64,000 bases of DNA from Hemileia vastatrix (lineage: Eukaryota; Basidiomycota; Pucciniomycetes; Pucciniales; Zaghouaniaceae). The notes under the pieces are model-generated. The model was given only the letters and a program-made list of their open reading frames with translations, did no database searches and had not been told where the DNA came from. This document shows, piece after piece, positions 11,673-61,661 of this stretch. The stretch lies in the NCBI GenBank assembly GCA_030280995.1, contig JASXTE010000013.1, positions 12,629,501-12,693,500 on the forward strand. The letters are read 5' to 3'. Positions within the stretch are counted from its first letter, which is position 1; each line of letters starts with the position of its first letter. The translations under genes and the position numbers were made by a program.

Positions 11673-11903
11673 ACTTTGTAGTAGTAAATGGCTCAGCATT
11701 ATTGTTAAGAGCCAGGGTGTTACACACCACTTGAAACCATCAACAAAACTCACACTTCTTGTGAGGACCTTGAGATGCAGTACTCTCCACACAAAATAAG
11801 TCGATGGCCACATAGGCTGTACAGGAAGTCTTGAATTGCCAAGTGGGAAGCCCCCCATCAGCTCGAGGGTGAGGAGGAGTAGGGGTCGGATTGGTATATT
11901 CAG
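11673..11903 (-). pseudogene. A3 accessory gene: 5' part of exon 1 with the cysteine cluster, decayed
   Basis: Minus strand, starting at a CTG (11903) where A1/A2 have ATG. With one early frameshift it reads TPTPPHPRADGG, then C, FCVESTASQGPHKKCEFC and a stop where A1 has R55. This is clearly the same protein as A1/A2 (TPTPPHPKADGG...FCVESTATRGPRQKCEFC). It runs to TTTK at the ACTTT duplication and continues at 3252 beyond A1. It is a third, much older relative of the accessory gene. Confidence 0.88.
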
Positions 11904-12008: not shown

Positions 12009-12027
12009 CCTTTTATACCCGGGCATC
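12009..12027 (-). promoter_or_regulatory. A3 accessory-gene TATA block
   Basis: Minus strand GATGCCCGGGTATAAAAGG directly next to the A3 LTR. It is the same 15-bp block as beside the A1 and A2 3' LTRs although the LTRs themselves have diverged strongly. Confidence 0.75.
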
Positions 12028-12819: not shown

Positions 12820-12876
12820 AAAAGTTATTATTTCATTGTTCATTTAAATAAATAATAAATAATGAATAATGAATAA

Positions 12877-13616: not shown

Positions 13617-13915
13617 CAAATAAAAATTAAAATACAAATTAAAATTAAAATTAAAATTAAAATAAACTAAATAAGTAATGTTCATTAAATGAAACAAAAT
13701 AATTTTTTTTACCAGCCAAGATGGAGATGATTTTGAAAGGAAAATCACAATACTTATACTCTGCAAATCCAAAAAACAATCAACTGTGTTCCCATGAAAT
13801 ATTGTCCTTGTATTCTAGTGAACATTGATGATCAATCCTTAAAAAAAACTTTAAACCCTAACTCTCAACCCCACTCCATAGAACTAAAATATAGTAATAA
13901 AATTTACAAATAATT

Positions 13916-20858: not shown

Positions 20859-20897
20859 ATAACAAATACTATCATATAACATTTCATATTTTGTAAT

Positions 20898-30473: not shown

Positions 30474-31959
30474 TGTTGGAGGGTTGTCTAGAAGAAGGAG
30501 AAAATGAAGAAGAGAAGGAAGAAATAAAGGCGGAGCTACCACTATGCAATATAGGGGGTGGACTTGCTAGCAAGTACTCAACCTGAACTCTACTTGAACA
30601 CCCACCTAAAACTTTTCTGCTGAGTGGTGTTCATCCCTTATTGTATGGTTCCTTTATAAATAGCTCAATGTTTTTTCAATCTGTGGTGAGTTTGGGTCCA
30701 AGGTTGCGGACTTGCTAGCAAGTCCTCCCCCATATTGTGTGGTGTACAATAGGTGGTAAGATAATAAAAAAATAATAGAATTTATAAAATAACTAAATTA
30801 AAGAAGAGAAATGTAATGACAAGTATTGAGATATGACACAACAGTGAGATTTGATTTATTTGTAAATACTTAATTGAGTAAGTAAATTCTTCTCTGCATG
30901 GCTAACAATATTTATTATTAAAAGACTTAGAGCAACATTAAATTAATTTTTCAATATTTATACTAGATTTTTGTATTACTAATAGAAATAAAAAATAACA
31001 GTTTGTAAGTATTTTAGAATATGTGTAATGTAAGTGATGACTGCTAGAGAGGATCTCAAGGCCCTTTTATAGGAAAGAAGACCATTTCAAGCGTCTCAAT
31101 TGTATTAACAAAGGATATAGTATTGTGAAACAAATAATTAATTTAATTTAATTAAAACATACAAAAATAAGGTGAAAATATGAAACAACAAATAAACCCT
31201 GTGAATAAGGAATTATTTTCCCACCATAAAATCCTAAAACAAAACAATTAAGATATTGAATAACTATGTGAGTGTGAAGCCTGAGAACTGTGAGTAAGAA
31301 AATCAGAAACAGGTAGTACATATAGCTTAAAAGGGTTTAATTAAAACAAAAGGAATTATTTTCATGCTTTAATGTATATAATAAATCTTAATTCAGTATA
31401 TAGAAAATTTAATTAATTTTTTTAACTATTTCAAGTAATTTAATTATTAATTTAATTAAAACAATTAATTAGTTTAATAAAATAACTTATTTAGAGTTAG
31501 AATATAAATTTATTATCTTAAATAAGTATTTTAATTTATTTAGTAATTTTAGTGACACACTTAAGGGTCAAGAAAGCGCCCAATATTTGTGGATAATATT
31601 ATATGATAAGTTGTATTTAGTTTATAAAAATTTTATTATTTAAATTGTAATTACATTATAAGTTAAATTTATTATTACACTTATAATATAATTTTTAAAT
31701 AATTAATTTATTAATTCAGAAATATTAAATACATAAAAAATGTGCCATGATGTTATAGAGTATACTATATTTTATGTAATAAAATTTTTCTTAATAATAA
31801 AATAAATATTATAATTATCTTACTTATAAAATATTTATATTATTTTATTCAATTAAGATATTTTATTGTAACTACATAAAATGCATAGTATCATTCCCTT
31901 AAATGATTCCAGTAACTTATTATACAATTTACTGGGCTCCTAAGATAGCCTAGCTGAGA
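30474..31959 (-). repeat. Element B 5' LTR, with MITE 2 inside
   Basis: 1,486 bp; 1,278 bp without the MITE and its duplication, against 1,275 bp for the 3' LTR. The inner boundary is TGTTGGAGGG, the outer AGCTGAGA next to GTAAT. Confidence 0.9.
30540..30744. mobile_element. CACTA-like MITE 2 in element B 5' LTR
   Basis: 205 bp starting CACTATGCAATATAGG and ending CATATTGTGTGGTG, flanked by TAC (30537-30539, 30745-30747). The 3' LTR of B reads GAGCTACAATAGG with no insertion, which gives the exact empty site. Opposite orientation to MITE 1 and same terminal palindrome. Confidence 0.88.
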
Positions 31960-32553: not shown

Positions 32554-34259
32554 ATGGCATAAGTTAGGATTGTATCTTTGGATGGGAACAAGTTCAATGG
32601 TGAAGAATTTAAATGGTTTTTGAGCAGATATGAAGCTTCCGCTTCTGTGGATGGGGCTTCTCATTTGGACATGGTGAAGCAAATTTGGTTTTTTATTGTG
32701 GAAAGAGAGGTGGGAAAAGAGGTCATTGCTATGGATGTTTATAAAAAGTGGGATTGGTTAATATTGTCAAAAGAGATGGTTGATAGAAAAGGTGTTAGGT
32801 ATACTATGGTGGACCTCAAAAAGATTGTCAGTGACTGGAAAGCAAAAGGTGGTGTTTCTACTATGCTGGAGTTTAAAAAGTTGGTTGAAAAGTTTGATGA
32901 AGTGGTGAAATACTTGGTTTTGGTGGAGGAGATAGGCCATGAAAAGTAGGGAGAGGATCTATTCTGGCCATCTTTTAGTAGGGATATTAGGATAAATGGG
33001 GTAAAAGAAGTGCAAGAGAAAATTTAATGATGTATCTTCTGAATGGGGAACAGAAGCTTCCTGATTTAGAGGTTATCAAAGAAAACATCCAGGTGTATTT
33101 AAAACTTACGGCTCTCGAAATCTTGTACTCAATATGTTATCAAGGTTAGTGAATTTTTGGGTGAAAACAATGATATTATGGTCAAAGCTCAAGAGGAAAA
33201 GAAGGCTCAGATGGGTTAGCTTGTTGCAAAGGTTGAGTGAAATGTGGAAAAAAAGATGGTTGATAACTTGGCTGACTTAACAAATCAGTTAAAAATATTT
33301 GTTCAAGAAACTCAGAAGGCTAATAGAGCACCTTTTGCTTCATCATAATTATCTTCTTATCAATCTAGGGGTTATGAGAAGAGGAATTATGGATTTAATG
33401 GTGATGGAAACCAATTTTCTGTGAATGGAAATGGAAATGGTAGTATTAATGGGAATTGAAATGGTAATGGTAACTGTGGAAATAGTTTTAGAGGTGGTTA
33501 TGGCAAACCCAGTGTGTGCTCCTATTGTAATAGGAGGGGACACAGAGCTTGTGATTTTTATCATTTGGATAGGGACTTGAATGCTGGTAGATTCAAACTT
33601 TATTAAAAGGTTTATAAATTCCTTGATGTATCTTTTATCAAACCAAGTGAAGGAAAAAACCCTTGGATTTAGTTAGGAGGAATACAATGGCTGAAAAATG
33701 GGCCAGGTTTGATGAATTAAATGATGATGATGATAATGTTAAAAGTGGAAAAGGTAATGATGGTAATTCTGGTGGAAAATTTAATAAGGGAAAAGAAAAG
33801 GTTATTAAAGCCACATTTTCAACTTCTATTGGTGGTTTGGAGTTTTGTTCAGCTCCTAGAGTGGGTGGTAACTGTATGGTGGGAGAGTATGATGTTGATG
33901 CTTCTAGAAGAGAAAATGCTACTAAAGCTAAAAGTAGAATTCAATGCCAATTAAGGGAAAAAACAGGTAAGAGAGAAAGTGAAAAGAGGAAAAAGAAACC
34001 ATACTCTAATGATGAATTATATAGGATGCAAAAGAGGATGGAATATATGAGGCCTCCTAGTTTTGGGAAGTTAGATTTAAATGGTGAGCCTTTACCTGTT
34101 GAAGAAGAATCAGAATCTGAAGAGTATTTACCATTTTATTCTCTCCCCAGACCAAGTTTTAGTGGTCCTACTTGTGTGGAACGGGTAAGAAGGACCAGTG
34201 ATGGATCTGGATTAGTGAAAGCAGTAGGTGATGGAGCTAGGATAATTGAAGATGAAGAT
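32554..34259 (+). pseudogene. gag: Element E gag, decayed and split
   Basis: Starts at an ATG aligned with E2 gag (63313), with an immediate TAA. Conserved stretch: DGNKFNGEEFKWFLSRYEAS.VDGASHLDMVKQI against DGTKFNVEDLKWFLENYETA.GVDGASYLEMVKQI. A knuckle-like CSYCNRRGHRAC lies near 33509-33545. From 33663 an open frame continues (acidic DELNDDDDN, then basic region) until element C interrupts at 34260. It resumes at 43617. Several stops and frameshifts. Confidence 0.78.
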
Positions 34260-35435
34260 TGTCAGTGTGTGCTAGTATCTAAGTATGATTTAATAATAAA
34301 TATTATTGGTCCTACTACTTATTCTTAAATGATTTAGTGATTAAACCTCAGGGGAAAACTAATAAACTAGTTATTCTCAATATAAACTCACAATACTTGT
34401 ATTTTTATGCGTTCTAGTGGTGAATAATAGATAAATAAAATATAGTTATAGCTTATATAAAGATAATATCAATTTATAAGGGCTTTATAATATATTTCTA
34501 AATGATAATAATTGTGTTCAAGGGTTTAATTGAGTTGTAGTAAGTAAGCTATGATCAATACCCCGTTAAATCCCTCCTTACTTATACAAAAATCCACTGG
34601 AGTGCACAGACCTTCAATCCAGAAGATGTCACACTATCCCCAGCAATTAAAGCACTGTGAGGGCCCATCACCTTCCCATGGTTTCCACTTCAAGAAGATT
34701 CAACACCCAGACCTCCTGTAAGGAACCTTCATCACAATTAATGATAACACAGATCTATACCACAAATAGAAAATCCAGATAAAAGCAGATACCATGAAGA
34801 AACAGGTAAAATAAACAATCAAAAAGAGATTTAATGAAACCAAAAGCATATAAAGGAAACAAATAAAATTTCCAAGCCCCCAATAACATCCCCAAGCATC
34901 CACATTAACCCAGAAATGACCTCCCAACCCATAAATTTGTGAATATCTATCCAAGGAAGCAGATTAAGTTGTCCAGACTGAGTGTATGCACCTGAAATAG
35001 ATGTTTATGCTTCTGTAGGCGTTGTGAGTCCACTGGATACGTCCATATGACCTAAAATAAGCAGAAAAACAAAGGTTATAGGCTATTAAGTGGCTAAAAC
35101 CCACTTATATACCTAAATATACATAATATACTGCAAATTTCACTGAATATGAGATTTATGTATACATATAAGCTTATGTATGTCAATAATTACTTCATAT
35201 CAATTAAGATAAGTATATTATGACTCCATTAACACCTTAACAAGTATTATTAGGCCATGTATAAGCTATTTAAACTACTATAATTTATATAATAGAGTAA
35301 TAATTATATATATATGTAATATAATCATATATATTATTATTTTAACCTTATTTTTAAGTTATAAGCTTAATGTACTTAAGTTTATCTTATTTTAAGTATA
35401 AGAAATACTCATTCCTAGGGATATCTAGGCTGAAA
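34260..35435 (-). repeat. Element C 3' LTR (probably hybrid)
   Basis: 1,176 bp. The inner end reads GGCTGAAA instead of GGCTGACA, the same change as at 43086, so it predates insertion. Next to it is the polypurine tract GAGTGAGGGAG (minus, 35436-35446). Confidence 0.92.
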
Positions 35436-35548
35436 CTCCCTCACTCAAAAAAAATAATAAAAAAAATGTTAAGACATTTTAATTAAAAGTAAGGAGTGAA
35501 TAGAAATTTTTTTAAATTTTCTATAATACATATACTGAATAAACAGTA

Positions 35549-38500
35549 TTATTTTGATTTAAATTTTTTCAAGAGATTTCTAAGATCAGAGATTTCATTT
35601 TCTGGAATCTTCTGGTCATATTCACTTGATTTTTTTTAAATCTTAATAGATACTCAACTCCATTTTCTTTAGTAAGGTGTCTCTTTTTAAGTATCTTTTC
35701 AATTTCTGTCTTTTCAACTATTTCTTCAGGTTGCTGTTTACGCCTTCCTTATCTTCTTGAAAATAGAGCAGTATCATTAAAATGGTATGAGTTTTAAGAG
35801 AAATAGGAAATACTGGATGTTTTCTATCATAAGGTGAATATAGAATAACCTCAACAGCATTATTACCAACCATCTTTTAACCACAAATTTTCCAATGAAT
35901 GGATCCTTCAATTTAACATTACCATTTAAATTGAAATGTAGTGTTGAAATAAGGACTTCATCACCCTCTTTAAGCATTTGTTCTTTATGGGGTTTATCCC
36001 ATCTTTTCTTTTCATACTCAAACACCTTATTTATACATTCTTGAGCATGTTTTCTGCATAATTCTTGCATATGAAGAAAAGATTTAGTACCTGGATGGAT
36101 ATCCAATCTAGGTAATTTATTAAGAGTTTTAGCAGGGGTATTAGGTACATAACCCAACCATAACTCAAATGGATTTTTACCAGTGACAGAATGTACTGTA
36201 CTATTGCATGCAGATTCTAAACCTGGGATAAGGGTTACCCAATCATGTGTGAATTTTTCATTGTCTTTGAAGTTAAGACCAAAAGCACAATATCTTCTTA
36301 TCATATCTTCTAAAGTTTGTATCATTCTTTCTTCTAGCCCATCAGTTTGTGGATGGTGTGCTGTAGAAAGTTTTAATTGACGCCCTGAAACATCCATAAG
36401 TGATGTCCAGAACTCAGAAGTAAATTAAGGATCTCTGTCAGAAACTATTGCTTTGGGGAAACCTGCTATATTTAAAATTTGTGTCCACCATAAAAAAGCT
36501 AAGTCCTTTGCACAAACCTCTTTGTGGGTAGGAATAAATTTACACATTTTTGTAAATCTATCTACAATTACCCAGAAGGAGTTATAACTCTTATTCCCTG
36601 CTATTGGAAAACCTGTTACAAATTCCATGTTAATAATTTCCTATGGAGCTTTTGGTTGCTCAATTTGTTGTAATAAACCAGCTCTTTTGCCTGTTAATCT
36701 TTTGGAATTTTTACAAGAATCACATGTCTCAACATATTTTTGAACATCCTCAGACATTTTAATCCACCAAGCTGTGTTTTTTACTCTGGTTTATGTTTTA
36801 TGGTAGTCAAAATGACCTGCTAATATATCATCATGACATATACTTAACATTAACTCCTTCATTGAAGGGGAAATTACAATTACATTACTTAATTTTTTCC
36901 TGTAATATATAAAACCATCCTCAATGGAAAATTTTCCTTTTTCTAATGCCTCTTTATACTTATTTGGTAATGTTTTTATTAAAACATTCATTGAAGCATT
37001 AGATAAATCATTTAATATTGTAGTGAGTTTACTCAAATCAGGATCTGAAGCATACATATCAAGAATTGATTGCATAAATTCATCCTCAAGATCTGCAATA
37101 AAAATGCCATAAATGTTAATAATCTCTGATTCAGGAACATAAGCAGGATTATCATCATTATTAGGCAGAGGTACTCTAGATAACAGATCTACATTAGAGT
37201 TTAAGGTTCCTGCTCTATGTGTAATAGTCATCTATCCTCTGTATTCTTGTACAGCTAATTGCCATCTAAACATGTGTCTATTAGGAGTTTTCATGTTTAA
37301 GAGTGACTTAACTGCAATACAGTCAGTTATTAGATCAAATTTTTGGTCTTCAAGGTAATAATGTAGCTTCTCAAGAGCCCATACTGCTGCCAAACATTCA
37401 AGTTGAGTAGCACCATATTTAAATTCACTACTTCTTAGAGTATGTGAAATATTGAAAATTACTACTTCTGACATTTTTCCTTCAATAAGTTGTTTTTGAT
37501 GCAAAGCAGCACCCAGACCAATAAAACTTGCATCTGTATATAATACAAAAGTCAATTGGAAATCTGGTAATCCCAAGATAGGAGCTGTCATTAAACATTC
37601 TTTCAACTTATCAAAATCCTGTTGTCTTTCATTATTCCAAATGAAAGCTTCTGATTTCTTTATCAGTGTGGTCAATGGTGCAGCAATTAATTGGTGGTTT
37701 TTTATATATTGTCTATAATAACCACACATACCAAGAAAAGATTATACATACATTACATTTTGAGGAATGCCAATATTCTTTATTGAAGCCACTTTATTTT
37801 GGTCTACACATATTTGTAAGCCAGATACAATATGACCAAGCACTTTTAAAGATTCAAACCCAAATTTACATTTTTTCAATGCAAGGGTCATTTTTATTTC
37901 ATCCATTTTTTGTAATACCTTTATTAAATGGATTAAGTGTTCATCATAAGTCTTAGAGAACACTATGATGTCATCAATGTATACCATTAACCATCCCTCA
38001 ATTGTTTCATTATGGAATTTCATATCCATTAACTTCTGAAATACTGATGGAGCATTTATTGGTCCAAATGGCATCCTGGCATATTTATAAATTCCCATGT
38101 GTGTTGCTATCAACAAAAAGTTCTGTGAATTCTTTTCAACAGGAATTTGATGGTACCCTTTGTTTCCATCTAAGCAACTTATATACTTAGCACCTTTGAG
38201 GGGAGCATGTATAGAGGCAATCTTTGGCAAAGGATAAATATCATCTACTGTAAATGTATTTAATGCTCTATAATCACCGCACAGTCTTTCTTTATCTTTT
38301 TCATAAGAAATTAGCACTGGTGATATTACACAATATTTTGGTGTAGTTTCAACCTTTTCAAGAATGTTCATTTTTAATAACATCTTAATATTATCCTCTA
38401 TGTCTTTCCTCTTCATTGGTGAAGCAGGGTATGGTTTCTTTTTAAGACTAGCAGGAATATTATCCATATCACAGGTTAAACTAATCTTCATTTCATGATC

Positions 38501-39220
38501 TTTTACAAGGCCAAGTTCATTTGTACCATGTGCAAAAGCCATTGGAAATGCTTTAATTAAGTCCAAATAATTATTTTTCTCAGCTTTTCTTATCTGAGTG
38601 CCAAATGATGCTTTTGAAATTTCTATTTCCAGAAGTTCCATTTCATTGGATTCTCTTCCTTTGCACAGAATATTTGTTACTGACTCAATGAGTAAGACTG
38701 TTTTAAAAGAATTTATTTTAAATTCTCTTTTACCATTCATGCCAATCATAAAATTGTTATTAGAAGGGTCTAATTTCACACCAAACTTAGTCAGAATATC
38801 ATTTCCAATGATAAAACAGTTACTACAGTTAGTATTATCCATTACTACAAAGTCACAAGTTATTCTTACATAACTATGTTGATGTTTAAAGAAAACAGCA
38901 GATTTTTATCTTCCAATGGGATTTAGTACTGATCCAAAACCTCTCCAATTTTTACTCTGAAGTGGTTCAAGCTTAGACTTATATACACTATCAATTTTCT
39001 GTAATGTATTAGTAGAAACAACAGAACCAGCAGCTCCTGTGTCCAATACTATATTAACATTTTCACCAGAAATGATAGCTGGAACCATTATAGGTGTCAT
39101 TCTAAAGTTATCAGGTTGTATATCTTTAATGATTTCAGCATCCTCAAAATTCATTAAAGATTCATTTAATTCCATATTTAATATTGGATTGTCAAAGATG
39201 GACAACTCATCTTCCAACAT
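35549..39220 (-). pseudogene. pol: Element C pol, decayed by scattered stops
   Basis: Minus-strand pieces: protease VLDTGAAGSVVS (38906-39220); RT in one open piece (37742-38842) with LCGDYRALN and an intact YIDD; RNase H with LYTDASFIGLG (37232-37729); integrase region with HPQTDGLEER (35777-37231); chromodomain tail ending at 35549. Stops are mostly single changes, for example a TAA just before SFLGMCGYY. Domain order matches B and D1. Confidence 0.92.
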
Positions 39221-39405
39221 ACAGATCTCATTTTCATCACTATATGAGATATTACTGTCATAATCACTTGAGTATTTACTTTTCTATGTTTCAATTTCAG
39301 ATTCATGTTTATTTTCAACAATATTAATATTCTTCTCACATTTGTGACTTTTAACCCAAGGTTTGTTACACTTATAACAAGTATTTGTCTCATACTTTTT
39401 TGGTA

Positions 39406-41403
39406 CTAAAGGTGCAGTAGGTTTTTTCTGCTTCTACTGAAGTGTTCTGAGTTCTGATTTTTCACAGGTTCAACACTTTGTTTATCATTGGAATACCTTG
39501 CTTCATACTTATGGTTTAGTAATATTTCATTGCAAATATTAATAAAGTCAGAATATTCAGTGACATTAATTGTTCTAGCTACAACAATGTCTCTGACAGA
39601 TTTAGGTAATTTATATATTATCTTATCTTTCCATAAGTTAAAATCCATGTGAGGCTCAATGGCTTTTAATATTTTATTTAAATTAATTAAAAATACCATA
39701 GGTTGGTCACCATTCAACGGATTATACCTAGTTTTCTCACAAAGTCTCTGCTGAGTGAGTCTGAATTTAGAACCTCCAAATTGTTTTTCAATTAGTTGTT
39801 TCCATTCAGCCCAAGAGTAATCTTTACCCTCATTCAAAACAGCTTCAAACCATGATAAAGCAACATCCTTAAATAAAGAGATCAATTTTGATGTTATTTC
39901 TTCATCTGGTAACTTATATGAGAATTTTAAATTGTCAATTCTTTGGATAAAATGTTGCCAATCAGAGCTGGCTTCCCCATCATAAGTTGGGTACTGATCA
40001 ATCTTAGGCCAATTCTTCTGATTGGATTTTATTTCACTAATCTTATGTAAATTCAACAACTCATTTACTCTTGATAAATGGTCTTGTATTTCCTCCTGTA
40101 CGGATTTGTGACTTACATTTTCAGATTTGACACTACCATCAGATGGTTTTAGTTGTGGTGGTATAGGTAAGGAATGAGATTCACTTTTTCCAATGAAAGT
40201 ATTATTATTATTTTGAGTATACATATGATTATCCTGGTTCATTAGTAGATTGGCAGTTTCAATCTCAACTTTAGTTAATCTTTGTAGCAGCTCAGAGACA
40301 CTTTGATTTGTCTGGGCAAAAGATAACTTAGTTCTTGATTCAGTTTTCAATAAATGTGTTTCATACAATTTTTCCAACTCACAGAATGTGTTTGAAAGTT
40401 CATTATATTTACTACTCAATGAATCATATTTAAGAGATAGAGACAAATTTTCATTCTCTAAGTCTTTATTACGTGTTTCCAGTTGATAAATATTTAATGT
40501 TAAGGATGAAATTGTATTACTTGTGAGCCTAACTGTCTGTTCCTCACAATCAGTCATTCTATTCAACAATGCTGAAACAATTCTATGGAAAGTTGGATTA
40601 TTATTAAAATACTCCCTGTCTTCCTTCTCAATTCTTTCACTCTCTTGTGAACTTCTAATCTCACTAAAAAGTGGTGGCAACTGAGGATTAACTGTATTAT
40701 AAATACTACTATTGTTATTGACAAAAGAAAAGTCAGGTTTATCTACACTAAAACCTAATTTTCTTAATTCCTCCTCAATTTTATGCACAGATTTGACATC
40801 AATAATTTTACCTACATTGTAATTATCAGTATTGTGTTCAATATGAGAGGGTAATCTACTTACCACGGGATTTTTGTGAGCCCTGATTTTTGGCACCTTT
40901 GTTTTCCCTTGTAGGGGTGAAGTGAGGAAGTATGATGAGGAGGAGGATCCTTGCTGCAGTTGTGACTGGCCCATTGTTGATGAAACCAATCCCACTTCCA
41001 TTTGTCTAACAGGATTTTCTCCTGTGAGTGATGTGCCCCTCCTGGGGTGGGGGGTTGCTGACTTGGCTGGCCTCCCTTTGGATCTGCCAATGATTAGTTC
41101 ATCTGCTGAAATCCTACCTTGCAATTGTTTTGTAATTGCTCTACCTCCTTGAGCATAAGGGATTTTGATTCCTCCAACTTCAATACCTGTTTTGCCAGAT
41201 GGGATAGTTGATCCTGAAGAGGAGGAGACGTCTTTTTTATAGTAATCTTTTTTAAGAGGGTGTCCTTTTCCTCTATGCTCATTTGCTCTGCCTGGGGGTA
41301 TGACTGACCCTCCATGGTTATGTCCTGGAGCAATGTTTTTGTTAGCTTTAGACCTGGTATTATAAGCAGGCTGTACACTTACATTGTCCTGGGGAGCACT
41401 CAT
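39406..41403 (-). CDS. gag: Element C gag, long open frame up to a frameshift before the zinc knuckle
   Basis: 665 codons from ATG at 41403. N-terminus basic and disordered (YNTRSKANK), then a long coiled-coil stretch (about residues 270-390), then a capsid-like region with DWQHFIQRIDNL, ALSWFEAVL and LWKDKIIYKLPKSVRDIVVART. The frame ends in a stop after an A-run reading AGA AAA AAC. One base back, the frame continues to KKYETNTCYKCNKPWVKSHKCEK, the knuckle (CX2C...HXC). Either a one-base loss or a frameshift explains this; in element B the two parts are in one frame. Confidence 0.82.
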   Translation of the reverse strand: MSAPQDNVSVQPAYNTRSKANKNIAPGHNHGGSVIPPGRANEHRGKGHPLKKDYYKKDVSSSSGSTIPSGKTGIEVGGIKIPYAQGGRAITKQLQGRISADELIIGRSKGRPAKSATPHPRRGTSLTGENPVRQMEVGLVSSTMGQSQLQQGSSSSSYFLTSPLQGKTKVPKIRAHKNPVVSRLPSHIEHNTDNYNVGKIIDVKSVHKIEEELRKLGFSVDKPDFSFVNNNSSIYNTVNPQLPPLFSEIRSSQESERIEKEDREYFNNNPTFHRIVSALLNRMTDCEEQTVRLTSNTISSLTLNIYQLETRNKDLENENLSLSLKYDSLSSKYNELSNTFCELEKLYETHLLKTESRTKLSFAQTNQSVSELLQRLTKVEIETANLLMNQDNHMYTQNNNNTFIGKSESHSLPIPPQLKPSDGSVKSENVSHKSVQEEIQDHLSRVNELLNLHKISEIKSNQKNWPKIDQYPTYDGEASSDWQHFIQRIDNLKFSYKLPDEEITSKLISLFKDVALSWFEAVLNEGKDYSWAEWKQLIEKQFGGSKFRLTQQRLCEKTRYNPLNGDQPMVFLINLNKILKAIEPHMDFNLWKDKIIYKLPKSVRDIVVARTINVTEYSDFINICNEILLNHKYEARYSNDKQSVEPVKNQNSEHFSRSRKNLLHL

Positions 41404-41910
41404 ATTGATAAAATTAACAATATATTACGTCTACAGAAAGGAAAACCTATTGGAATTAGTGGATTAAAAGTATTAGCAATATTATTTCTAATAAAAAGCA
41501 CTGGAGCTTACCCTGAATTTAAATCTTTATTTATTTAAATAAAATGTAATAAAAATTCAGAAAAATTTGTTAAAAATAAAATAATAAGTTTAAATAGACC
41601 TTTATAAGGGTGAATAATTAGCTTACCAAGCTTTAAACAAATACCAGTTTAATTGGGTTTATATTGGTGACCAAATACCAAGTGAAATTGGGTTTATATT
41701 GGGTACAGTTACTACTGTAAATACCTAATTTTTATTATAAAAAATTAGTAAAATTATTATAAGGGCTCTTTTCTGCAATCACTAAGTTATGATGACTCAC
41801 TAATATTAAGAAGACCCAAATATTTGGTTATTTTAAGCTATACTAAAGTAAAAATCATGTCCTAAGGCTTATACTAAAAAATCAATAATAATCATGGAAA
41901 GACCCCCAAT
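41404..41910. other. Element C leader with primer-binding site
   Basis: No gene. Directly left of the 5' LTR the minus strand reads ATTGGGGGTCTTTCC; TGGGGGTCTTTCC fits a tRNA-type site complementary to a 3' end ...GGAAAGACCCCCA. Confidence 0.6.
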
Positions 41911-43086
41911 TGTCAGTGTATCTAGTATTTTAGTATGATAGAATAGTATTTATTTATGGTCCTACTACTTATTAAAAAATTATCTAGTGATTAAACCTCA
42001 GGGGAAGACTAATAAAATAGTTATACTCAAATAAACCTCACAATACTTGGATTTAAATGCGTGCTAGTGGTGGAAAATAGATGAATAAAATATAGTTATA
42101 GCTTATATAAAGATAATATCAATTTATAATGGCTTTATAATATATTTCTAAATTCTAATAATTGTGTTTTAATGTTTATTTGAATTTTATAAAGTGAATG
42201 ATGTCTAATAACCGTCAAAATCCCCCCTTACTTATACCAAAATCCACTGGAGTGCACAGACCTTCAATCCAGATGATGTCACTGCTATCCCCAGAAATTA
42301 CAGCACTGTGAGGGCCCATCACCTCCCCATGGAATCCACTTCAAGCAGATTCAACACCCAGACAACCAGTAAGGACCCTCCATCACAATTAATCATAACA
42401 CAGACCTATACCATAAATAGAAAATCCAGATAAAAGCGGATACCATATAGAAACAGGTAAAATAACTCATCCAAAGAGAATATAATGAAACCCAAAGTGT
42501 ATAAAGGAAACAAATGAAATGTCCAAGCCCCAAATAAAATCCCCAAGCATCCATATTAACCCAGAAATGACCTCCCAACACATAAATCCATGAATATCCA
42601 TCCAAGGAAGCAGATTAAGTTGTCCAGACTGAGTGTATGCGCCTGAAATAGATGTTTATGCTTCTGTAGGTGTTTTGAGTCCACTGGATACGTCCATATG
42701 ACCTAAAATAAGCAGAAAAACAAGGTTTATAGGCTATTAATGGGCTAAAACCCACTTATATACCTAAATATACATTATATACTGCAAATTTCACTGAATA
42801 TGAGATTTATGTATACATATAAGCTTATGTATGTCAATAATTACTTCATATCACTTAAGATAAGTATATTATGACTCCATTAACACCTTAACAAGTATTA
42901 TTAGGCCATGTATAAGCTATTTAAACTACTATAATTTATATAATAGAGTAATAATTATATATATATGTAATATAATCATATATATTATTATTTTAACCTT
43001 ATTTTTAAGATATAAGCTTAATGTACTTAAGGTTATCTTATTTTAAGTATAAAAAATACTCAGTCCTAGGGCTATCTAGGCTGAAA
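41911..43086 (-). repeat. Element C 5' LTR
   Basis: 1,176 bp, TGTCAGTG...GGCTGAAA on the plus strand, same length as the 3' LTR and the solo LTR at 25033-26208. Confidence 0.93.
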
Positions 43087-43616
43087 TTAACCCAGTAATG
43101 ATATCCCAACCCATAAATCCATGAAAATCCATCAAAGGAAGCAGATTAAGTTGTCCAAACTTGATATATGCACCTAGAATAGGTGTATATGCTTGTGTAG
43201 GCATTGTGAGTCCACTGAATACGTCCATATGACCTAAAAAAGCAGAAAAATAAAGGTTTTAGGCTATTAAGAGGTTAAAACCCACTTATAGACCTAAATA
43301 TACATAATATAACTACATATTTTACTGAATATGAGGTTTATGTGTACATATAAGCTTATGCATGTGTATAATTACTTAATATCACTTAAGATAAGTATAT
43401 TATGACCCCATAAACATCTTAATAAGTATAATTAGGCTATGAATAAGCTATTTAAACTACTATAGGTCATATAATAGTGTAATAATTATATATATATGTA
43501 TTATAACCATATATATAATTATATTAACCTTATTTTAAATTATAAGCTTAATTTTATTAAGGTTATCTTATTTTAAAGATAAGAATTACTCAGTCCTGGG
43601 GAGACCTAGGCTGACA
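43087..43616 (-). repeat. Partial C-type LTR beside element C
   Basis: 530 bp matching the outer part of a C LTR from TTAACCCAG (as at about 42557) to GCTGACA. It carries the AAGAT duplication of the outer insertion. Confidence 0.88.
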
Positions 43617-43873
43617 AAGATGTTATTATGGGGGTGAAAATGGCAATGTGGGTCCTCAAGAGATACCCAGGGCTAAGGTAAATAAAAATAAATTTCAGTA
43701 TGAAAGGCCAGAAGTAGCTGGTCAAGAAATAACAATTTAGATTTTTTTTAGGTAGAGTGAATCAACTTCAGATTCCTTTATCCTTAGGCAAATTATTTAC
43801 AAGTATTTTTGTCCTTGAAGAGAAGCAAAAGAAGAATCTGAAAAGGAGACAGGCATCAGTTGGAGAGGTGGAA
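43617..43873 (+). pseudogene. Element E gag/pol junction after element C
   Basis: Continues E after the AAGAT duplication. With a one-base shift it reads GGENGNVGPQEIPRAKVNKNKFQYERPE... to a TAG near 43738, then a second stretch EEKQKKNLKRRQASVGEVE up to the D-type LTR. Confidence 0.6.
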
Positions 43874-53207: not shown

Positions 53208-53979
53208 TGTCACCGGACGACCTACGCACAGGGTCGAGGATGTTCCTAAAAGTGAGATGAGAGATTTAGAAACTTCTTTGAAGCACAGAGGAATGATTCG
53301 AGGAAGTGATTCAAAGGTCACTCGAAGTAAGAGCTACAGGTTCAAGATTCGTTCGAGAAGAATTATAAAATAGTTTCAAAGGTAATAGGAATTCTTAAGA
53401 TCTCACAAAGGGTTGAAAACTCAATAATCAAAGATTTAGGATTTAGAAATGAATTTTGAGAAAATAAAAGAAAGATACAATAACAATGATTTTAACTTAA
53501 AGATTTTACCACTATTAATGTAAATACGTTTTATAATTTAATTCTAAGGAATATCGAACAAAATACCCAACCCTTTTATATCCTTTATTCCTCCCCGCAT
53601 TGACCTCCCTTTCATCGCACCATTCCCATACCATTGACCATTACTAACATACACTTAGACCCTCTTTGCTAAATATCCGTCCATGCTCAATTTACCCCTT
53701 TTTAATTAATTAACAAAACTTTAATGAAAACTACTACTGTACTATTATGTTGATCCTAGCGCTGTGAGTCGCTTATTGAAAAGGAGACTAAGGCACCCTA
53801 TTGGGAGATTGAATAATTTAGATTTAGAGTTTAGGCTAGCACAGTTAAATAGTAAGTACACAAAGGGGAATCGCAGTTGCTATGCAGAATTGCTTTCTGC
53901 GCTTTGAGTATAGATTTAGGACTCGATATTATTGATTTAATGAGCTGCTTTTGCCTCCAGTGTCACGTGGCGCGTGACA
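53208..53979 (-). repeat. A2 3' LTR
   Basis: 772 bp, TGTCACC...GTGACA. Carries a block CTTTGCTAAATATCCGTCCATG... (near 53665) absent from A1 LTRs, so A1 and A2 are distinct sublineages. Confidence 0.95.
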
Positions 53980-53996
53980 GATGCCCGGGTATAAGA
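53980..53996 (+). promoter_or_regulatory. TATA promoter of the A2 accessory gene
   Basis: GATGCCCGGGTATAA directly after the LTR, as in A1 and A3; TATAAG at 53990-53995, 94 bp before the ATG at 54090. Confidence 0.68.
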
Positions 53997-54089
53997 ATCG
54001 CGAACTCTGTTGAGCTTGAGCCATCTTCTCACACTAGTTCCCCTTTCTTCATATATATTTTCTCCTTATTTATTAATTTCCCTTTTATA

Positions 54090-55043
54090 ATGAACTGCCC
54101 TACTCCCACACCTACGCCTCCACACCCTAAAGCAGATGGGGGAATGATTACGCAACAATTTTCCCAAACTTGCACGGCTTGTAAAAACATGGAATACTTT
54201 TGTGTCGAAAGTACGGCGACTCAAGGCCCTCACCAGAAATGCGAGTTTTGCCGTTGGCGACAAGTGGCATGCGATGCGTTGACGAAGAACGCAGAGATCG
54301 AACAACGGTTTACCAAGACCAAGTTATGGGTAATCCCTAAAACAAAAGAGGTGGTCAAAGACATTTGGGATGTCTCGGTTGAAGATGAACAATCGGTGGG
54401 GGAGAATGATAAGGAGCTTGACAATGAGATCACAACCTGGGTAACCCAGGCCACGAGTTCGAAGCGGGGTGTCGAAGAAGAGGTCGACGAATTGGTGGAG
54501 GAAGATGAAGATGAAGTCCCTGTTCCAGGGTGGGCACCCAAGAAACGACGGGTGGTCATCGAAAACGACAAGGAGGAAAGAGAAGCAGAGGTAGGGGTGG
54601 CGCCAAGGTTATTCTTAGAACCTGACCCCATCTTTGAGGTAAGTTTTTTAATTGTTATTTTTTTAAGGATGAGGTTACTGATGAGTTTTTTTTAGACATC
54701 GAATACCCTTGAAGACCTGATTGGGGAGCCTGCGCCGCTTTTAACAACTGAGGCAAACCCTCTGGTCACGGGTGTAGTCGAAGATCCTGAAGACACACTG
54801 GACCAGGTGTGGTCGAAGAAACCTCGTCAAGGTCAACGAGTAAGGTTCGCAGAAGAGTTGTGTGGAGAGGTCAACACAATTATCGAAGCTGCTTCCTTCG
54901 ACGTGGCAGAGGAACTCTTGGAGATTAGAGAGGTGGTTCCGGTAGGAGAGGAGGAGGTATTTGAGAAATGCAGGAAGGAGATAAGGGTAGTTTTGGAGAA
55001 GATGAAAAGATTGGTTCGAGAAAAATTAAAAGAAAAAATTTGA
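54090..55043 (+). CDS. A2 accessory gene: 298-residue Zn2Cys6-type nuclear protein, intact
   Basis: Exons 54090-54638 and 54696-55043; intron 54639-54695 (57 nt, GTAAGT...TTTTAG, branch-like ACTGATG). The start is the ATG shared with A1, although the frame is open further upstream. Cysteines at 28, 31, 38, 51, 54 and 61 (CX2CX6CX12CX2CX6C). NLS-like PKKRRVV at about 150-156, acidic EEDEDE block before it, charged helical C-terminus (MKRLVREKLKEKI). Opposite strand to gag-pol. The cysteine spacing meets the Zn(II)2Cys6 rule, but the usual basic residues between cysteines 1 and 3 are not prominent, so DNA binding is an inference. No function has been assigned to this protein from sequence alone. 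Alternatives are a captured host factor or an RNA-binding/regulatory protein of the element. Confidence 0.9.
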
Positions 55044-55984
55044 AATAAAAAGAGAGATGTAAAGAAGTAGAAAAGTAGAATTGTATTTTAGTTTTATTTT
55101 ATTTTATTTTTTTATTGTAGGTGAATATTATTAATTTTATAAGATTTGGGAGAGAGAGAAAAAAAAGAAGTTTTAAATAAAATTTTGCTTTTAGAATTTG
55201 AAAGAAGAAATTTAAATAAAGAAAAAAAAATATTTATTTGAAGGAAGTTTTAAGGTTTTAAAAGAAAAAATTTATGTAAGAAAAGAGAGAGAAAAAGAAA
55301 CGGTTGGTGATTGAGATGAGTTTGTTAAATTGAGAATTTAAAAGAAGAATTTGTTATTTGCGAAAAGTTGTTGATTGATTTTTTTAGGAATTTTTCGTTG
55401 AAAAGAGAGGAAGAAGAAATAAGAAAAAAAAAACAGAAGACAGAATTTAGAATTTAAAGAGAATTTGAAAAGAAGAATCATTTGTCCAAAGAATTTTTAT
55501 AGGGAGATTTAAAGGTTGAAGTTAAGTTCGAGGAAATGGTTGTGTCGTACAGGATTTGATGGTTCGAAGGAAAGAAAATTTTAAAGCAAGAATAAATTTT
55601 TAGAAAAGAAAATTTTAAAGAGAATTTTAAATTTAAGGAAAGAATGTATTTAGAGAATTGAAAAAGAAAAGAAAGAAAATATTTAGAGAGATTTAAGAGT
55701 TTTTTATTTTATTCAATTATTTATGTTTATTCTATTTATTTTATTTTATTTTATTATTTATATTTATTCTATTTATTTTATTTTATTTTATTTTATTTTA
55801 TTTAATTTTAATTTTAATTTTATTTTTAGTTGGTTTTGGAGGAAATTTTATAGAAGGAGAAGAAAGAAAAGAAGAGGAGAAAGAAAAAAAAAGAAAACAA
55901 GGCTAAGAAATTTAAGAGGTGTTTTAGATTTTACGAGAAAAAGAAATAAAGAAAAAGAAAAGAAAATTTAAAATAAATGAAATT
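55044..55984. other. A2 low-complexity spacer between convergent genes
   Basis: Purine-rich plus strand with ATTTTATTTT blocks near 55700-55830, as in A1. The 82-residue frame here is repeat-derived. Confidence 0.6.
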
Positions 55985-58900
55985 TTAAGGTTTTGGTTTT
56001 AAAGGATATTTCAAATGAGAAGATTTTAGGAGTTCAGGGGCGTTAGAAACATTGATGGCTGGTTCCCAGGATTTTTTGTCTGAGTCATCAAGGAAGCCTT
56101 CCCATTCCACGAGGTACTGAAGTTTTCCCTTGCGCATTCTTGAATCAAGGATACGACTTACTTCCCACTCTAGATGATCTTCTACTTCGACCGGTTCCAG
56201 AGGGGGTTGGTTCTTGCCCGGGTATATTTCTCGAGCCAGTTCCAGGAGAGATACATATAAAACAGGGTGAATTGCCTGCCATTTAGGGGGTAACTTGAGT
56301 CGAAATGCAGTTTTAGAGACTTCAGAGTCGATTTTGAATGTTCCTAAGCGCTTTTCAGCCAGTTTCTTTAATGGTCGTGTTGTTCGAATGTTTCGTGTGT
56401 CAAGCCATACTTTGTCGCCTGGTTTAAAGGAAGGAGAAGATTGTCGATGTTTGTCAGCCTGTTCCTTGTATCTTCGAATTGCTGATTCCAAATTTGTTTT
56501 AAGTTCTTCTTGGAGTCGTGATATAGTTTGAAGATAATGTTCTGCAGGATGATTAGTTCCTACATGGATTGAGTTGAATTGAGGATGTCGTCCATAGATG
56601 GTTTCGAAGGGAGATTGTTGTGTCGAATAATGAGTCGAGTTATTATAAGCAAATTCGGCCAATGGTAACCATGTGGTCCAATCGTCTTGTTTGTAACTGA
56701 CATACATTCGAAGATATTGTTTGAGGATTTGGTTAACTCTTTCTGTTTGACCATCGGTTTCAGGGTGATAGGCCGTGGAGAGGTTCCTCGTGATATTGAG
56801 TTGTCGACACAGTTGGGTCCAGAATGTGGATACAAACAATGAGCCTCTATTTGAAATAATATAATTTGGTAAGCCATGTTTGGAAAATACATATTCTAGA
56901 AACAATTTTGACCAATCTTCTGCTGTAGCAGTAGTAGTGGTTTTAATGAAATTAGACATTTTTGAAAATCTATCTACTATTACTAATATAGCATCAAAAT
57001 CATTAGAAAAAGGAAGTTGAGAAATGAAATCCATCGATAAAGATTTCCAAGGTGGAGAGGGAATAGGAAGTGGTTGAAGCAACCCATGCTTCTGGTGACG
57101 TGAGCCTTATTCCTATTACATTTGTAACAAGATTTTATATAGGCTTTGATTTCCCTGGTTATACCTGGCCAGAAGAAATCCCTTGCTATTAACTGGTAGG
57201 TTTTATCAACCCCAAAATGACCAGCTAATGGAGAATCATGTCGACTGTTGAAAATCCATAATTTTATCTCATTGTTGTCGGGTATGACTACTCTACCTTC
57301 AAAAACTAATAGACCTGATTCAATACTAAATCTTTTGGCCCCATGCTTCGAAAGTACTTTGTCTTTTAACCCTAAACAATATTCGTCCTTCGACTGAGCT
57401 TCGAGGATGTTAAATAGTGGATTTCGAAAAGATTGAATTGTCATTGAATTAAGTTGATGAGTCGTTAACATTGATTCGTTGAAGATTGATTGCACATTTG
57501 CTGGGTTCTTGTCAGCAAATGCGCCCCCCCCCTGTGGGTAAACGTCTTCCCGACGTGACAAGATATCTGGGACAATGCAGTTTTTACCTGGGCGATAGGA
57601 AATAGAGAAGGAAAATTCAGACAAAAATTCAGCCCACCTGGCTTGACGCCTGGTTAACACTTTAGAAGACATGAAGTATTTCAAAGCATTATGATCTGTT
57701 AAAATTTGAAAAAGACTATCTAGGCTGAGAAGAAAAGAACGCCATTTTTTAAGACAATGGATAATAGCTAAAAGCTCTTTGTCATGAATTTCATAATTTA
57801 ATTCTGCGGCTATGAGTTTGTGTGACTCAAAAGCAACAGGATGAAAGAAATTTGTTTCAGGATTTAATTGGGAGATGACTCCTGCAATAGCATAATCGCT
57901 CGCATCTGTCTCAACTATTGTCGAGGCCGAAGGATCAAAATGTCGAAGAATTGGGGCTGTGGTGAAGGCCGTTTTTAGTGCTTCAAATTCCTTTTGTGCT
58001 GTAGAAGTAAAAACAAAAGGAATGTCTTTTCTAAGAAGAGAAGTAAGATTGGAAATAGTTTTAGAGTAATCTTTAATAAATCTTCTATAGAAGTTGGCAA
58101 AACCCAAAAATCCTTGGAGCGATTTAATGTTTTTGGGCTCAGGCCATTCCAGGATTTTCTGGACTTTTTTGTCATCCATGACTAAACCGTCAGTGGATAA
58201 TGTAAAACCCAAAAAATCAATTGATTTGAGGTGGAATTCGCATTTATTATGCTTGGCGTAGAGACCATGATCTCGAAGTCGATTTAGAACATGTCGAACA
58301 TGATGAATATTTTCATCTAGTGTTTTCGAGAATATTAAAATATCATCTAAATAGACAACAACAAATTGTTCGACAACATCTTGGAAGATGTCATTAACAA
58401 AAGTTTGAAAAGTTGAAGGTGCGTTACATAATCCAAAAGGCATAACTAAATATTCAAAACTACCAAATCTAGTTCGCATTGCAGTCAGTGGTTCATGACC
58501 TTCTGCAATGCAAATCAGATTGTAAGCGCCTCTAAGATCAATTTTAGAAAAGAAATTAGCACCATTGGAAAGGGTAAGGAGTAATGACATAGGAGGAACA
58601 GGATATGCATTCTTCTTAGTGACTGTGTTGAGCTTTCTATAGTCAACACACAACCTAAGACTACCGTCCTTCTTTTTTACAAAGAGGACAGGGGAGCCCG
58701 TTGGAGATTTACTGGCTCTGATGAAACCTTTGGCTACATTCTCTGCAATGTAGTCTTGAAGAACTTGAGATTTGTCCTTCGACAAAGAATAGACAGGACC
58801 TGCTGGAGGTACTGGGCCTATTAACTCTATTTGATGGTCGTAGGGTCGATGAGGAGGTAACTTATCGGCCTTGCGGATTGAGAAAACATCGAGGAAATCG

Positions 58901-59640
58901 TGGTAGATTTCCGATAGAGTTGTTTTAATGGCTTTAACATTGATTTGGTTGTCCTCTTCATCTTTGAGAGAATCTGTCGAGGGGATACCTGTATTGAGAG
59001 AGCAGAATTCGATTAATTTGAGGCAATTTAAATCCTCTTTGAGTGAAGTCATCGAGCTAGAAGGGTTAGCCAATTGCTCATTTAGAGAAAGATCAGATGC
59101 TTGCAAGTCATCTGGCAGAGATTTGTCCTCTAGCAGGACGTTGTCAGGCCGGTTGTTTAACTCCCTATTGACCTGCATTGAAGAATCAGAAATATACTTA
59201 GAGCGTGGGGTGATCAATCCCTTAGTCCAATCAATTTTGGGATTCCAATGCGTTAAAAAGTCATGGCCAAGAATGGTATCGTCCATCCTTGGGGCGTCCA
59301 AGACTGATAATTCCCACTCAAAGGGGGGAAAGTTCGGAAAGTTGAGAACCCATAAAACTTTCTTACTTACCCAATATTTGGGTTCCTCTGATTCGACCAA
59401 ATAGATTGGAGTTCAATCAATATCTGTAAATGTTAGTTGAAGCTTCTTGGCAAAAGATAAACTAACAAAAGAAATTGAAGCCCCAGAGTCTATAAGACAA
59501 CTGAAGGGGATATCCTCCTTAAAAAGAATGAATCTCAAGCGGTTTAAGGCAACTCCAGTCCTTAAGACATGGAGGTTCTGTGCACTGGGAGAGATAAGAT
59601 AGTTTGCTTTGCACACAAGTAAACTATCTACTAGTTTTTT
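55985..59640 (-). pseudogene. pol: A2 pol, broken by one stop and one frameshift
   Basis: Three pieces: 59413-59616 (protease N-terminus, ends at a TGA where A1 has CAA); 56983-59400 (protease, RT with intact YLDD, RNase H, integrase zinc finger); 55985-57082 (integrase core and chromodomain). The frameshift near 57098 is one base lost against A1 (GACGTGAGCC against GACGGGGAGCC). The slippery site 59634-59640 is intact. Confidence 0.93.
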
Positions 59641-60718
59641 GACTTCGAACTAGTACCTTCTCTTTCCTTCAACTTTACACAGTCTTCCAACTTGTGCTTA
59701 CCCCCACAATACATACATAACCCATTATCTGCTCGTCTCTTCCTCTCAGCTTCTTTAAGTTCCCCTTTAGGATCCAGTACTTTGCTGATATTGCCTGGGG
59801 TCGAGCCTTTTGGTCGAGGTTTATCCTTTCCCTTATTGGGTTTGGATTGAGTTGAGGAGGATTGATTTGGTTGTGGGTGTGAAGAAGTTCCCAATTTAAA
59901 GTTTAGGCCTTGAGATTTGTTGGCGTATTGACGATGTTGAAGTCGTCCTTGATAAACACCGTCAAGTTCGAGGGTTCGATCCATTAAATCCGTTAAAGTA
60001 GTCATCTTCTGACCGTGAAGATTTAATTGATCCAGAATCCTCTACGGAAGTCCTTTCTTGAAATGATACTTAAGGGCAGCATCATTCCAACCTACTCGAG
60101 TTTGAAGTGCTCTGAAGTTCGAGATATATTCAGAGTCTTTGCCATTATCACTCATGCGAAGGAAATCAAGTTCAATTTCTGCGTTGTCAGTTTCATTAGG
60201 GTCCCCAAACAACGTAAAAAGTTGGTCTTCAAATTATTTACAATTATTGATAAGTAAGTGGGTTTCTGTCGAAGAAAGCATGAGCAGATAAGGCTTGAAC
60301 CATCTTGCTGCTTTCCCGGCTAGGAATGAAGAGCGTAAACAACCTTAGATTGGTCGCTGTTAAAGGTTTGAGGGTCATTATGGAACAGCAGCTTGCAGGT
60401 TTGCAAGAAGGGTCGCAATCTGTCGGGGTGATCTCCGTCGAGTTTGTCAGGAGATTTCATAGAAGGAGTTTTGAACTTAGATCCCTCTGAAGACGTTGGA
60501 TTTGAAAGGGTTTTCTTGAAAAGTCTCATGAAATCTTCCAGAGAGTTAGATGGTCCAGGTTCTGAGGATTGATCAGAAGGGTGATTGGCTGGGGCGGATG
60601 GTGCCTCGTGCATTGTATCCTCTCCTTCTTCTTCATCACTAGAATCCTCAAAATCTTGTGGGATGTCTTCTACAGATTGGACTGAATGTTGCCGTTCCAT
60701 AAGGTTGAGTGGTTCCAA
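59631..60718 (-). pseudogene. gag: A2 gag, broken
   Basis: N-terminal piece 60320-60718 ends by a one-base loss near 60330 (A1 has one more A). A C-terminal piece (59631-60005) holds the intact CMYCGGKHKLEDC knuckle. Between them are stops, including a TAG at the site of A1 LPSRILDQ. As in A1, the frame is open upstream to the LTR side without an ATG. Confidence 0.9.
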
Positions 60719-60874
60719 AGAGTGAGTGCGGGAAACAGACCTTGTGGCTGTTGGCCTGCCCCTAGCGCGAGCTCTAGTAGTAGCGCCTGGAGGAGGAGTG
60801 CGTTGAACAGGTGCTATTTTAAGACTTTAAAAACACCTAAAAGGACGTAGTAGTGCAAAGAATGAGAACTACGG

Positions 60875-60888
60875 AGAATTAAATTATA
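60875..60888 (-). promoter_or_regulatory. A2 self-priming primer-binding site
   Basis: Same 14-nt block as in A1, one base from the 5' LTR; complement in the LTR at 61214-61227, about 35 nt after a TATAAAA box (plus 61256-61262). Confidence 0.75.
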
Positions 60889-60889
60889 C

Positions 60890-61661
60890 TGTCACCAGAC
60901 GACTTACGCACAGGGTCGAGGATGTTCCTGAAAGTGAGATGAGAGATTTAGAAACTTCTTCGAAGCACAGAGGAATGGTTCGAGGAAGTGATTCGAAGGT
61001 CACTCGAAGTAAGAGCTACAGGTTTGAGGTTCGTTCGAGAAGAATTATAAAATAGTTTCAAAGGTAATAAGAATTCTTAAGATCTCACGAAGGGTTGAAA
61101 ACTCAATAATCAAAGATTTAGGATTTAGAAATGAATATTGAGAAAATAAAAGAAAGATACAATAACAATGATTTTAACTTAAAGATTTTACCACTATTAA
61201 TGTAAATACGTTTTATAATTTAATTCTAAGGAATATCGAACCAAATACCCAACCCTTTTATATCCTTTATTCCTCCTCGCATTGACCTCCCTTTCATTGC
61301 ACCATTCCCATACCATTGACCATTACTAACATACACTTAGACCCTCTTTGCTAAATATCCGTCCATGCTCAATTTACCCCTTTTTAATTAATTAACAAAA
61401 CTTTAATGAAAACTACTACTGTACTATTACGTTGATCCTAGTGCTGTGCGTCGCTTATTGAAAAGGAGACTAAGGCACCCTATTGGGAGATTGACTAATT
61501 TAGATTTAGAGTTTAGACTAGCTCAGTTAAATAGTAAGTACACAAAGGGGAATCACAGTTGCTATGGAGAATTGCTTTCTGCGCTTCGAGTATAGATTTA
61601 GGACTCGATATTATTAATTTAATGAGCTGCTTTTGCCTCGAGTGTCACGTGGCGCGTGACA
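60890..61661 (-). repeat. A2 5' LTR with promoter
   Basis: 772 bp, same length as the 3' LTR and very similar. Bounded on the right by CAAAG. Confidence 0.95.

Follow-up and report, generated by a model that had tools for sequence, protein, structure and literature searches.

What does a spliced protein gene do on the strand opposite to gag and pol of an LTR retrotransposon, and whose gene is it? The question is raised by the window analysed here, a whole stretch of 64,000 nucleotides from the basidiomycete Hemileia vastatrix. Two elements in it, A1 and A2, carry such a gene between pol and the 3' LTR. The preliminary description of the locus had offered two answers, an element-encoded nuclear regulator or a captured host transcription factor.

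The element and its antisense gene

The main features of A2 and of its sister element A1 are the following.

53208–61661, gag-pol on the minus strand: A2, one of two well-preserved copies of one LTR retrotransposon
53208–53979, minus strand: 3' LTR of A2 (in the gag-pol sense), its U3 tip at the right edge, sharing the CAAAG target duplication with the other LTR
54090–54638, plus strand: exon 1 of the antisense gene, 549 nt, 183 codons, with the ATG at 54090, a six-cysteine motif (aa 28–61), PKKRR (aa 150) and an acidic region
54639–54695, plus strand: intron, 57 nt, GTAAGT...CTGAT...TTTTAG (55 nt in A1; GTAAGT in register in A3)
54696–55043, plus strand: exon 2, 348 nt with the stop, 115 codons and stop, C-terminal helical region
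55044–55984, plus strand: spacer from the antisense gene to the end of pol, mostly purine-rich, AT-rich and indel-rich, with AATAAA at 55044; presumed antisense 3' UTR
55985–59412, minus strand: pol, with Pfam matches to reverse transcriptase, RNase H, integrase, SH3_Tf2-1 and chromodomain
59634–60826, minus strand: gag, disrupted
60890–61661, minus strand: 5' LTR of A2, from the comparison of the LTR pair
3253–11672, minus strand: A1, with LTRs at 3253–3989 and 10936–11672 and with gag and pol open
4099–5050, plus strand: antisense gene of A1 (exon 1 4099–4647, intron 4648–4702, exon 2 4703–5050), TAG at codon 137

The LTR pair is 96.6% identical in A2 and 98.0% identical in A1, and the 5-bp target duplications are CAAAG and ACTTT, respectively. 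The two elements are in opposite states. In A1, the gag (395 codons) and pol (1221 codons) frames are open and the antisense gene contains a stop, whereas A2 has disrupted frames for gag and pol and an open antisense gene. The frameshift in A2 pol lies where two open frames overlap (56986–57106). The GC content of the antisense gene is 0.47 and that of the window is 0.33. Scans of the window for tRNAs and Rfam families found none.

It turned out that the two-exon gene of 298 codons reported for A2 (54090–55043, in the interval between pol and the 3' LTR) is indeed present and has zero internal stops. The TATA box, which had been placed 10 bp outside the LTR, was found there as TATAA at 53990–53994, with 10 bp of internal sequence separating it from the LTR end at 53979. 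The A1 copy had been presented as the same gene. Its exon lengths are equal to those of A2, but the copy is not intact, as codon 137 in exon 1 is an in-frame TAG, and its intron has 55 nt, not 57 nt. This last difference helps the case for the gene: 55 is not a multiple of three, so the A1 exons share one frame only when the intron is removed. If left unspliced, the A2 frame would end at a stop at codon 202. The GTAAGT, CTGAT and TTTTAG signals are common to the A1 and A2 introns. It had also been argued that a retroelement gene with an intron must be antisense or lose the intron. This goes too far: sense messages are spliced in retroviruses and in plant env-like elements, whose genomic RNA nevertheless retains the intron, as the export argument explains. 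Splicing is noted for Bagy2 in the available text of PMC7264820.

To which class does the element belong? One or two bases past the 5' LTR, both A1 and A2 have a 14-nt complement to AGAATTAAATTATA, which is located at LTR position 435, about 35 nt after the start of the TATAAAAGG box (a TATA box), where the RNA is predicted to start. In 1000 shuffles, the longest match of the primer site was 13 nt and was obtained twice. The self-priming site fixes the polarity of the element and thus places the antisense gene at its 3' end. The element appears to be a self-priming Tf1/sushi-like chromovirus. As in these elements, the primer site can pair with what is predicted to be the 5' end of the RNA, and the pol domains, SH3_Tf2-1 and the chromodomain among them, score above the cut-offs. 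Unlike them, it carries an antisense gene and lacks a polypurine tract at the 3' LTR, and in A1 gag and pol occupy two different frames (Tf1 has a single ORF). A protein search with pol gave 7872 of 7960 candidates at E ≤ 1e-10, and the best identity among the best 120 listed was 61%. The organisms named among these 120 include Austropuccinia, a Tremellales species, Trametes, Ustilago and Microbotryum, mostly basidiomycete, along with the amoeba Planoprotostelium fungivorum and a record labelled Chlamydiales. Judging by these relatives, the element is probably of basidiomycete origin.

The window contains a second LTR element at 34258–43084, with LTRs of about 1.18 kb. Further copies of its LTR lie at 19681–20861 (inverted), at 25031–26206 and, in part, at 43086–43618. 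Its 665-codon ORF (39406–41403), which has no Pfam match above the cut-off, is presumably gag. Opposite the pol of this second element, there is no stop-to-stop frame of at least 120 codons.

A third copy and selection on the gene

Using tblastn of the protein against the window, we found a third copy of the gene, A3, which had been missed in the preliminary description. It lies in pieces on the minus strand.

11671–11889, minus strand: A3 gene piece, aa 6–79, the zinc-motif region, with five of six cysteines and one stop
2916–3251, minus strand: A3 gene piece, aa 78–186, up to the 5' splice site GTAAGT at about 2924
1343–1537, minus strand: A3 gene piece, aa 234–298 (exon 2), with four stops
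12028–12819, plus strand: A3 3' LTR, 792 bp, with the palindrome and the AATTAAATTATA R-start motif
2–106, plus strand: A3 pol end, resembling the chromodomain tail (16 residues, 56% identity, E 3.7e-4 in a one-sequence comparison)

Exon 1 of the A3 gene is split by the insertion of A1 (target duplication ACTTT). It ends at GTAAGT in register with A2, with CTGAT and TTTTAG further 3', and GTAAGT is in register in all three copies. Since the layout and the splice signal of A3 are as in A2, an older relative already had the same arrangement. The LTRs of A3 and A2 share short blocks only (the best BLAST blocks are 85, 41 and 34 bp at 78–88%). The position opposite gag-pol, in the interval between pol and the 3' LTR, is that of the antisense accessory genes known as aORF-3R; it is seen directly in A1 and A2 and through the layout of the pieces in A3. 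An LTR-like repeat (about 1707–2730) is present inside the A3 gene, between its second and third pieces, and resembles 21108–22106 and 31512–31777. Just past the A3 LTR, at 12846–13674, there is a near-perfect tandem repeat of the AAAAAT type, about 800 bp long.

We then compared the copies codon by codon. Between A1 and A2, dN/dS of the gene is 0.158 (range 0.10–0.24 in 1000 codon bootstraps), with an omega of 0.10 in exon 1 and 0.34 in exon 2; the first pol frame gives 0.28 (780 of 809 aligned codons). Over the 298 codons, there are 22, 17 and 69 differences at the first, second and third positions. Indel events number 0 in 897 exon columns, 3 in 54 aligned intron columns and 22 in 893 spacer columns. 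When the 108 changes were placed at random, an omega of 0.158 or less was obtained in 0 of 500 trials, and the lowest value was 0.36. One stop or none resulted in 75 of the 500 trials, so the open frames alone are weak proof. LTR differences amount to 2.0% within A1 and 3.4% within A2, compared to 7.4 and 9.5% between the elements. Thus, most of the divergence predates the present insertions and arose in active elements, where selection should show.

Third-position differences between A1 and A2 were found in 69 of 298 codons of the gene versus 69 of 780 codons of pol, and dS is 0.58 in exon 1 versus 0.13 in pol. CpG decay is insufficient as a cause of this high synonymous divergence: non-CpG differences are 0.120 in exon 1 and 0.037 in pol. 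Perhaps the antisense gene came by recombination from another subfamily.

The substitution test with A3 used two easily aligned gap-free blocks (60 and 65 codons) and left out the middle piece, which is gapped and about 30% identical. Compared to A2, pS is 0.82 and 0.84 and pN is 0.22 and 0.29 in these blocks; compared to A1, pS is 0.82 and 0.93 with the same pN of 0.22 and 0.29. Synonymous change between A3 and A2 is near saturation. The A3 blocks carry one and four in-frame stops, so part of pN is due to decay after insertion. Within the window, the gene is present in 3 of 3 copies with signs of selection; these are three copies only, one of them decayed. We have shown that the intron-bearing protein gene is a long-standing resident of a self-priming chromovirus lineage and that purifying selection acts on both sides of its intron. 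An element-encoded spliced antisense gene, as the preliminary description had it, is well supported by the three copies, by selection and by the conserved splice signals.

The protein, the adjacent sites and their possible role

The A2 protein has a mass of 34 kDa and a pI of 4.6, and is acidic overall. Six cysteines at residues 28, 31, 38, 51, 54 and 61, spaced C-x2-C-x6-C-x12-C-x2-C-x6-C, are all kept in A1, and a PKKRR stretch starts at residue 150. The cysteines satisfy the pattern CX2CX6CX5-12CX2CX6-8C, which we take to be the spacing of the Zn(II)2Cys6 family (PF00172). This spacing is shared with the fungal Zn(II)2Cys6 factors, but the scores, 10.6 bits for the first 80 residues of A2 and 10.3 bits for the first 135 of A1, do not reach the Pfam cut-off of 21. 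The match is limited to the second cysteine triad (positions 3–15 of the 39 in the Zn_clus model, at the model start), and the first triad in A2 has a single basic residue. We therefore do not file the protein as a Zn(II)2Cys6 family member on these scores. The best of the weak Pfam matches is Death_3 at residues 81–123 (11–15 bits, cut-off 27), with E values of 0.41 for the whole protein, 0.099 for exon 1 and 0.02 for A1, all below the cut-off. A PDB sequence search gave three matches, the best of which, SUGP1 (E 0.41, residues 82–123), covers the same stretch.

Profile search and structure prediction had been suggested as a check: Pfam matches were all below cut-off, the exon 1 model was useless, and exon 2 is predicted to be helical. 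The AlphaFold model of exon 1, built from two sequences, had a pLDDT of 38 and was discarded. In the model of exon 2 there are two long helices (mean pLDDT 64; about 71–84 over residues 51–110 of exon 2), and a fold search with it returned weak matches only, with the best E of 3.1. The homologue search with the whole protein gave 1409 candidates, none at E ≤ 1, and for residues 20–84 there was no candidate with three shared words. Fungal elements are represented in this database, since the pol search on it gave matches, but with 61% as the best listed identity the genome of the window itself seems to be missing from it. In viral contigs, exon 1 had 46 pattern matches, none confirmed, and pol had zero.

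Two sites lie beside the gene, at the border of the 3' LTR.

53961–53979, strand not applicable: TGTCAC-N7-GTGACA, a palindrome at the tip of U3 that may be an operator or a terminal site
53980–53994, plus strand: invariant block GATGCCCGGGTATAA just inside the 3' LTR; antisense TATA and/or plus-strand primer site

The palindrome occurs in five of five LTRs of the window, four times exactly and once with one mismatch, where 0.08 occurrences are expected by chance. In the 3' LTR it is 10 bp from the antisense TATA box. Its outer arm is the LTR terminus, which the integrase requires anyway; the inner arm, which is needless for that role, does not recur within the 24 bases shown for the opposite end of the LTR. 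In A3, the arms are unchanged and six of the seven centre bases differ. The seventh pair is G-C in A1 and A2 and A-T in A3. We do not count this pair as covariation, since CpG decay yields the same result and all six centre changes are transitions. The change could be due to selection for symmetry or to plain decay of two CpGs.

The block GATGCCCGGGTATAA is exact in all three copies (A1 3990–4004, A2 53980–53994, A3 12013–12027 on the minus strand). At the 3' LTRs of A1, A2 and A3 we found no polypurine tract, as 7–8 of the final 20 bases are purines, and this makes the invariant block a candidate for plus-strand priming too. Indeed, the 15-mer could be kept for plus-strand priming instead of as a promoter. 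In the sense direction, the invariant TTATACCCGGGCATC stands where the polypurine tract is expected, and 12 bases of it recur inside pol, at 6260 and 56215. Ty1 has a central plus-strand primer. We do not claim this role for TGCCCGGGTATA inside pol (6260, 56215), because its recurrence may be explained by coding constraint: many relatives have P-G at this place, among the 70 of 120 proteins that match an anchor pattern. These data are compatible with promoter, operator and replication readings alike.

What could the product do? The nuclear regulator of the preliminary description agrees with PKKRR, with the cluster of six cysteines and with the palindrome in U3, and from these features we infer, with a probability of about 0.55, a nuclear DNA-binding regulator of the element. 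Its steps are given here in falling order of confidence. Antisense transcription would start from the TATA box that lies 10 bp from the 3' LTR border on the internal side, and the transcript would be spliced and then polyadenylated in the A-rich spacer. The product would enter the nucleus by means of PKKRR, and its cysteine cluster would bind zinc and nucleic acid. The protein may dimerise through its C-terminal helices. Finally, it may act on the element's own DNA, most likely on the U3-tip palindrome of both LTRs. At the 3' LTR, the target would be the promoter of the antisense gene itself, with its TATA box 10 bp away, and at the 5' LTR the protein would tune the genomic RNA. Such a regulator would set the level of element activity, as HBZ does in HTLV-1. 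The antisense placement would keep the intron out of genomic RNA splicing and would allow the gene to run when sense transcription is off. The complete version of this scheme, a self-contained on/off circuit in which a dimeric zinc-cluster-like protein recognises the U3-tip palindrome of both LTRs and controls both its own promoter and the genomic RNA, is tentative, and we consider it doubtful.

Alternatively, the protein may serve replication: it would join the particle or the pre-integration complex and aid nuclear entry, integration targeting or nucleic-acid chaperoning. The PKKRR stretch and the cysteine cluster suit this role, the integrase end coincides with the outer half of the palindrome, and transport of the pre-integration complex is discussed in connection with antisense proteins in the available text of PMC7264820. 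However, the element already possesses a CCHC-type knuckle in gag (identified by eye) and a chromodomain in pol, and a particle protein is not obviously in need of a separate antisense promoter. We regard a replication role as unlikely.

VANC of the Arabidopsis VANDAL elements is a parallel for an anti-silencing factor, that is, a self-encoded protein that shields its element from host chromatin or RNA silencing. The nuclear-type features of the sequence, a GC-rich gene in an AT-rich genome and the motifs kept in the element's own non-coding DNA are consistent with such a factor, but there is neither a homologue nor a Pfam family above the cut-off, and its probability here is low.

It is highly improbable that the antisense RNA itself is the functional product, pairing with the genomic RNA and setting the copy number through dsRNA. 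This RNA would overlap the 3' part of the genomic RNA, and control by dsRNA is raised in the available text of PMC7264820. However, changes concentrate at third codon positions and exon indels are zero, so selection acts on the protein, which argues against a reading by antisense RNA alone. RNA and protein functions could coexist.

The captured host transcription factor received no support, as two protein searches returned zero homologues. Recent capture of a host gene that is passively carried would account for the intron, the TATA box and the GC content of 0.47 versus 0.33 in the window. Nevertheless, the gene occupies the same place in A3, and its synonymous sites are near saturation compared to A2. 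Thus, the carriage is old, and recent capture has a very slight chance of being correct.

The weakest proposal, that the true gene is the sense-strand mirror ORF (208 codons in A1, 4080–4706), can practically be dismissed. In its favour, one mirror frame shares its wobble positions with the antisense frame and for that reason also has a low omega (0.18 for exon 1 and 0.36 for exon 2); this frame has zero stops in A1 exon 1, and the middle A3 piece has one open mirror-strand frame. However, the antisense omega is lower in both exons (0.10, 0.34), and the mirror frame has two stops in A2 exon 1 and, in exon 2, two in A2 and one in A1. In the remaining two pieces of A3, no mirror-strand frame is free of stops, and the intron would be unexplained.

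What speaks for a real protein is the sequence itself: selection maintained to near synonymous saturation, the lack of exon indels and an intron carried through reverse transcription, to which a specific candidate binding site is added.

Comparison with known systems

The hosts of Boty are ascomycetes, and the primary paper on its brtn gene is reportedly Zhao 2011. Both plants and this fungal element have antisense genes in the interval that separates pol from the 3' LTR (PMC7264820, PMC11963269, PMC8365987, in the parts available). The preliminary description had named plant precedents only; the plant part holds, but a fungal precedent exists as well. In the Boty-like Ty3/gypsy elements of Botrytis cinerea and Sclerotinia, brtn is an antisense extra gene at the same place of a fungal LTR element (PMC7264820, PMC8365987). 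The likeness to brtn is drawn here by description alone, and the pol relatives of A2 are mostly basidiomycete among those named. In plants, Grande (gene23), RIRE2 and Retand have antisense ORFs in the interval between pol and the 3' LTR. According to the available text, the Grande gene has its own promoter and a nuclear product, and the TRP28 domain of Retand is thought to be DNA-binding (PMC7264820, PMC11963269). Retand differs in belonging to a non-chromovirus plant lineage, and Pfam gave no match to TRP28, SMC or bZIP in the present protein.

The word "intron" never occurs in the available text of PMC11963269, and the fungal chromovirus survey PMC2864245 gave no hit for "antisense" in the part available. 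We met no intron-bearing antisense gene of a fungal LTR element in the literature, of which most subscription papers stayed uncovered, so that its absence is unproven. As far as these searches show, the conserved intron, selection across diverged copies, the cysteine cluster and the palindrome are new. The available text of PMC7264820 states that the function of antisense genes in LTR retrotransposons is unknown and urges attention to antisense and spliced transcripts. The regulator proposed here would turn this statement into a binding and reporter test, and it would place an HBZ-like arrangement in fungi.

HBZ of HTLV-1 and APH-2/3/4 lie antisense close to the 3' LTR and give spliced transcripts, and HBZ is nuclear and lowers transcription from the 5' LTR (PMC10186651, in the part available). 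The present gene is not of the HBZ type, which combines bZIP with a promoter in the 3' LTR: its TATA box is outside the LTR, and the bZIP match is missing. HBZ is retroviral and starts in the 3' LTR, whereas here the TATA box is internal and the protein has a cysteine cluster. We therefore speak of analogy and claim no homology. By this analogy, HBZ would be the closest working model for the regulator (PMC10186651, available text). If the circuit is true, it would be an HBZ-like latency regulator that evolved independently and has its operator inside the LTR.
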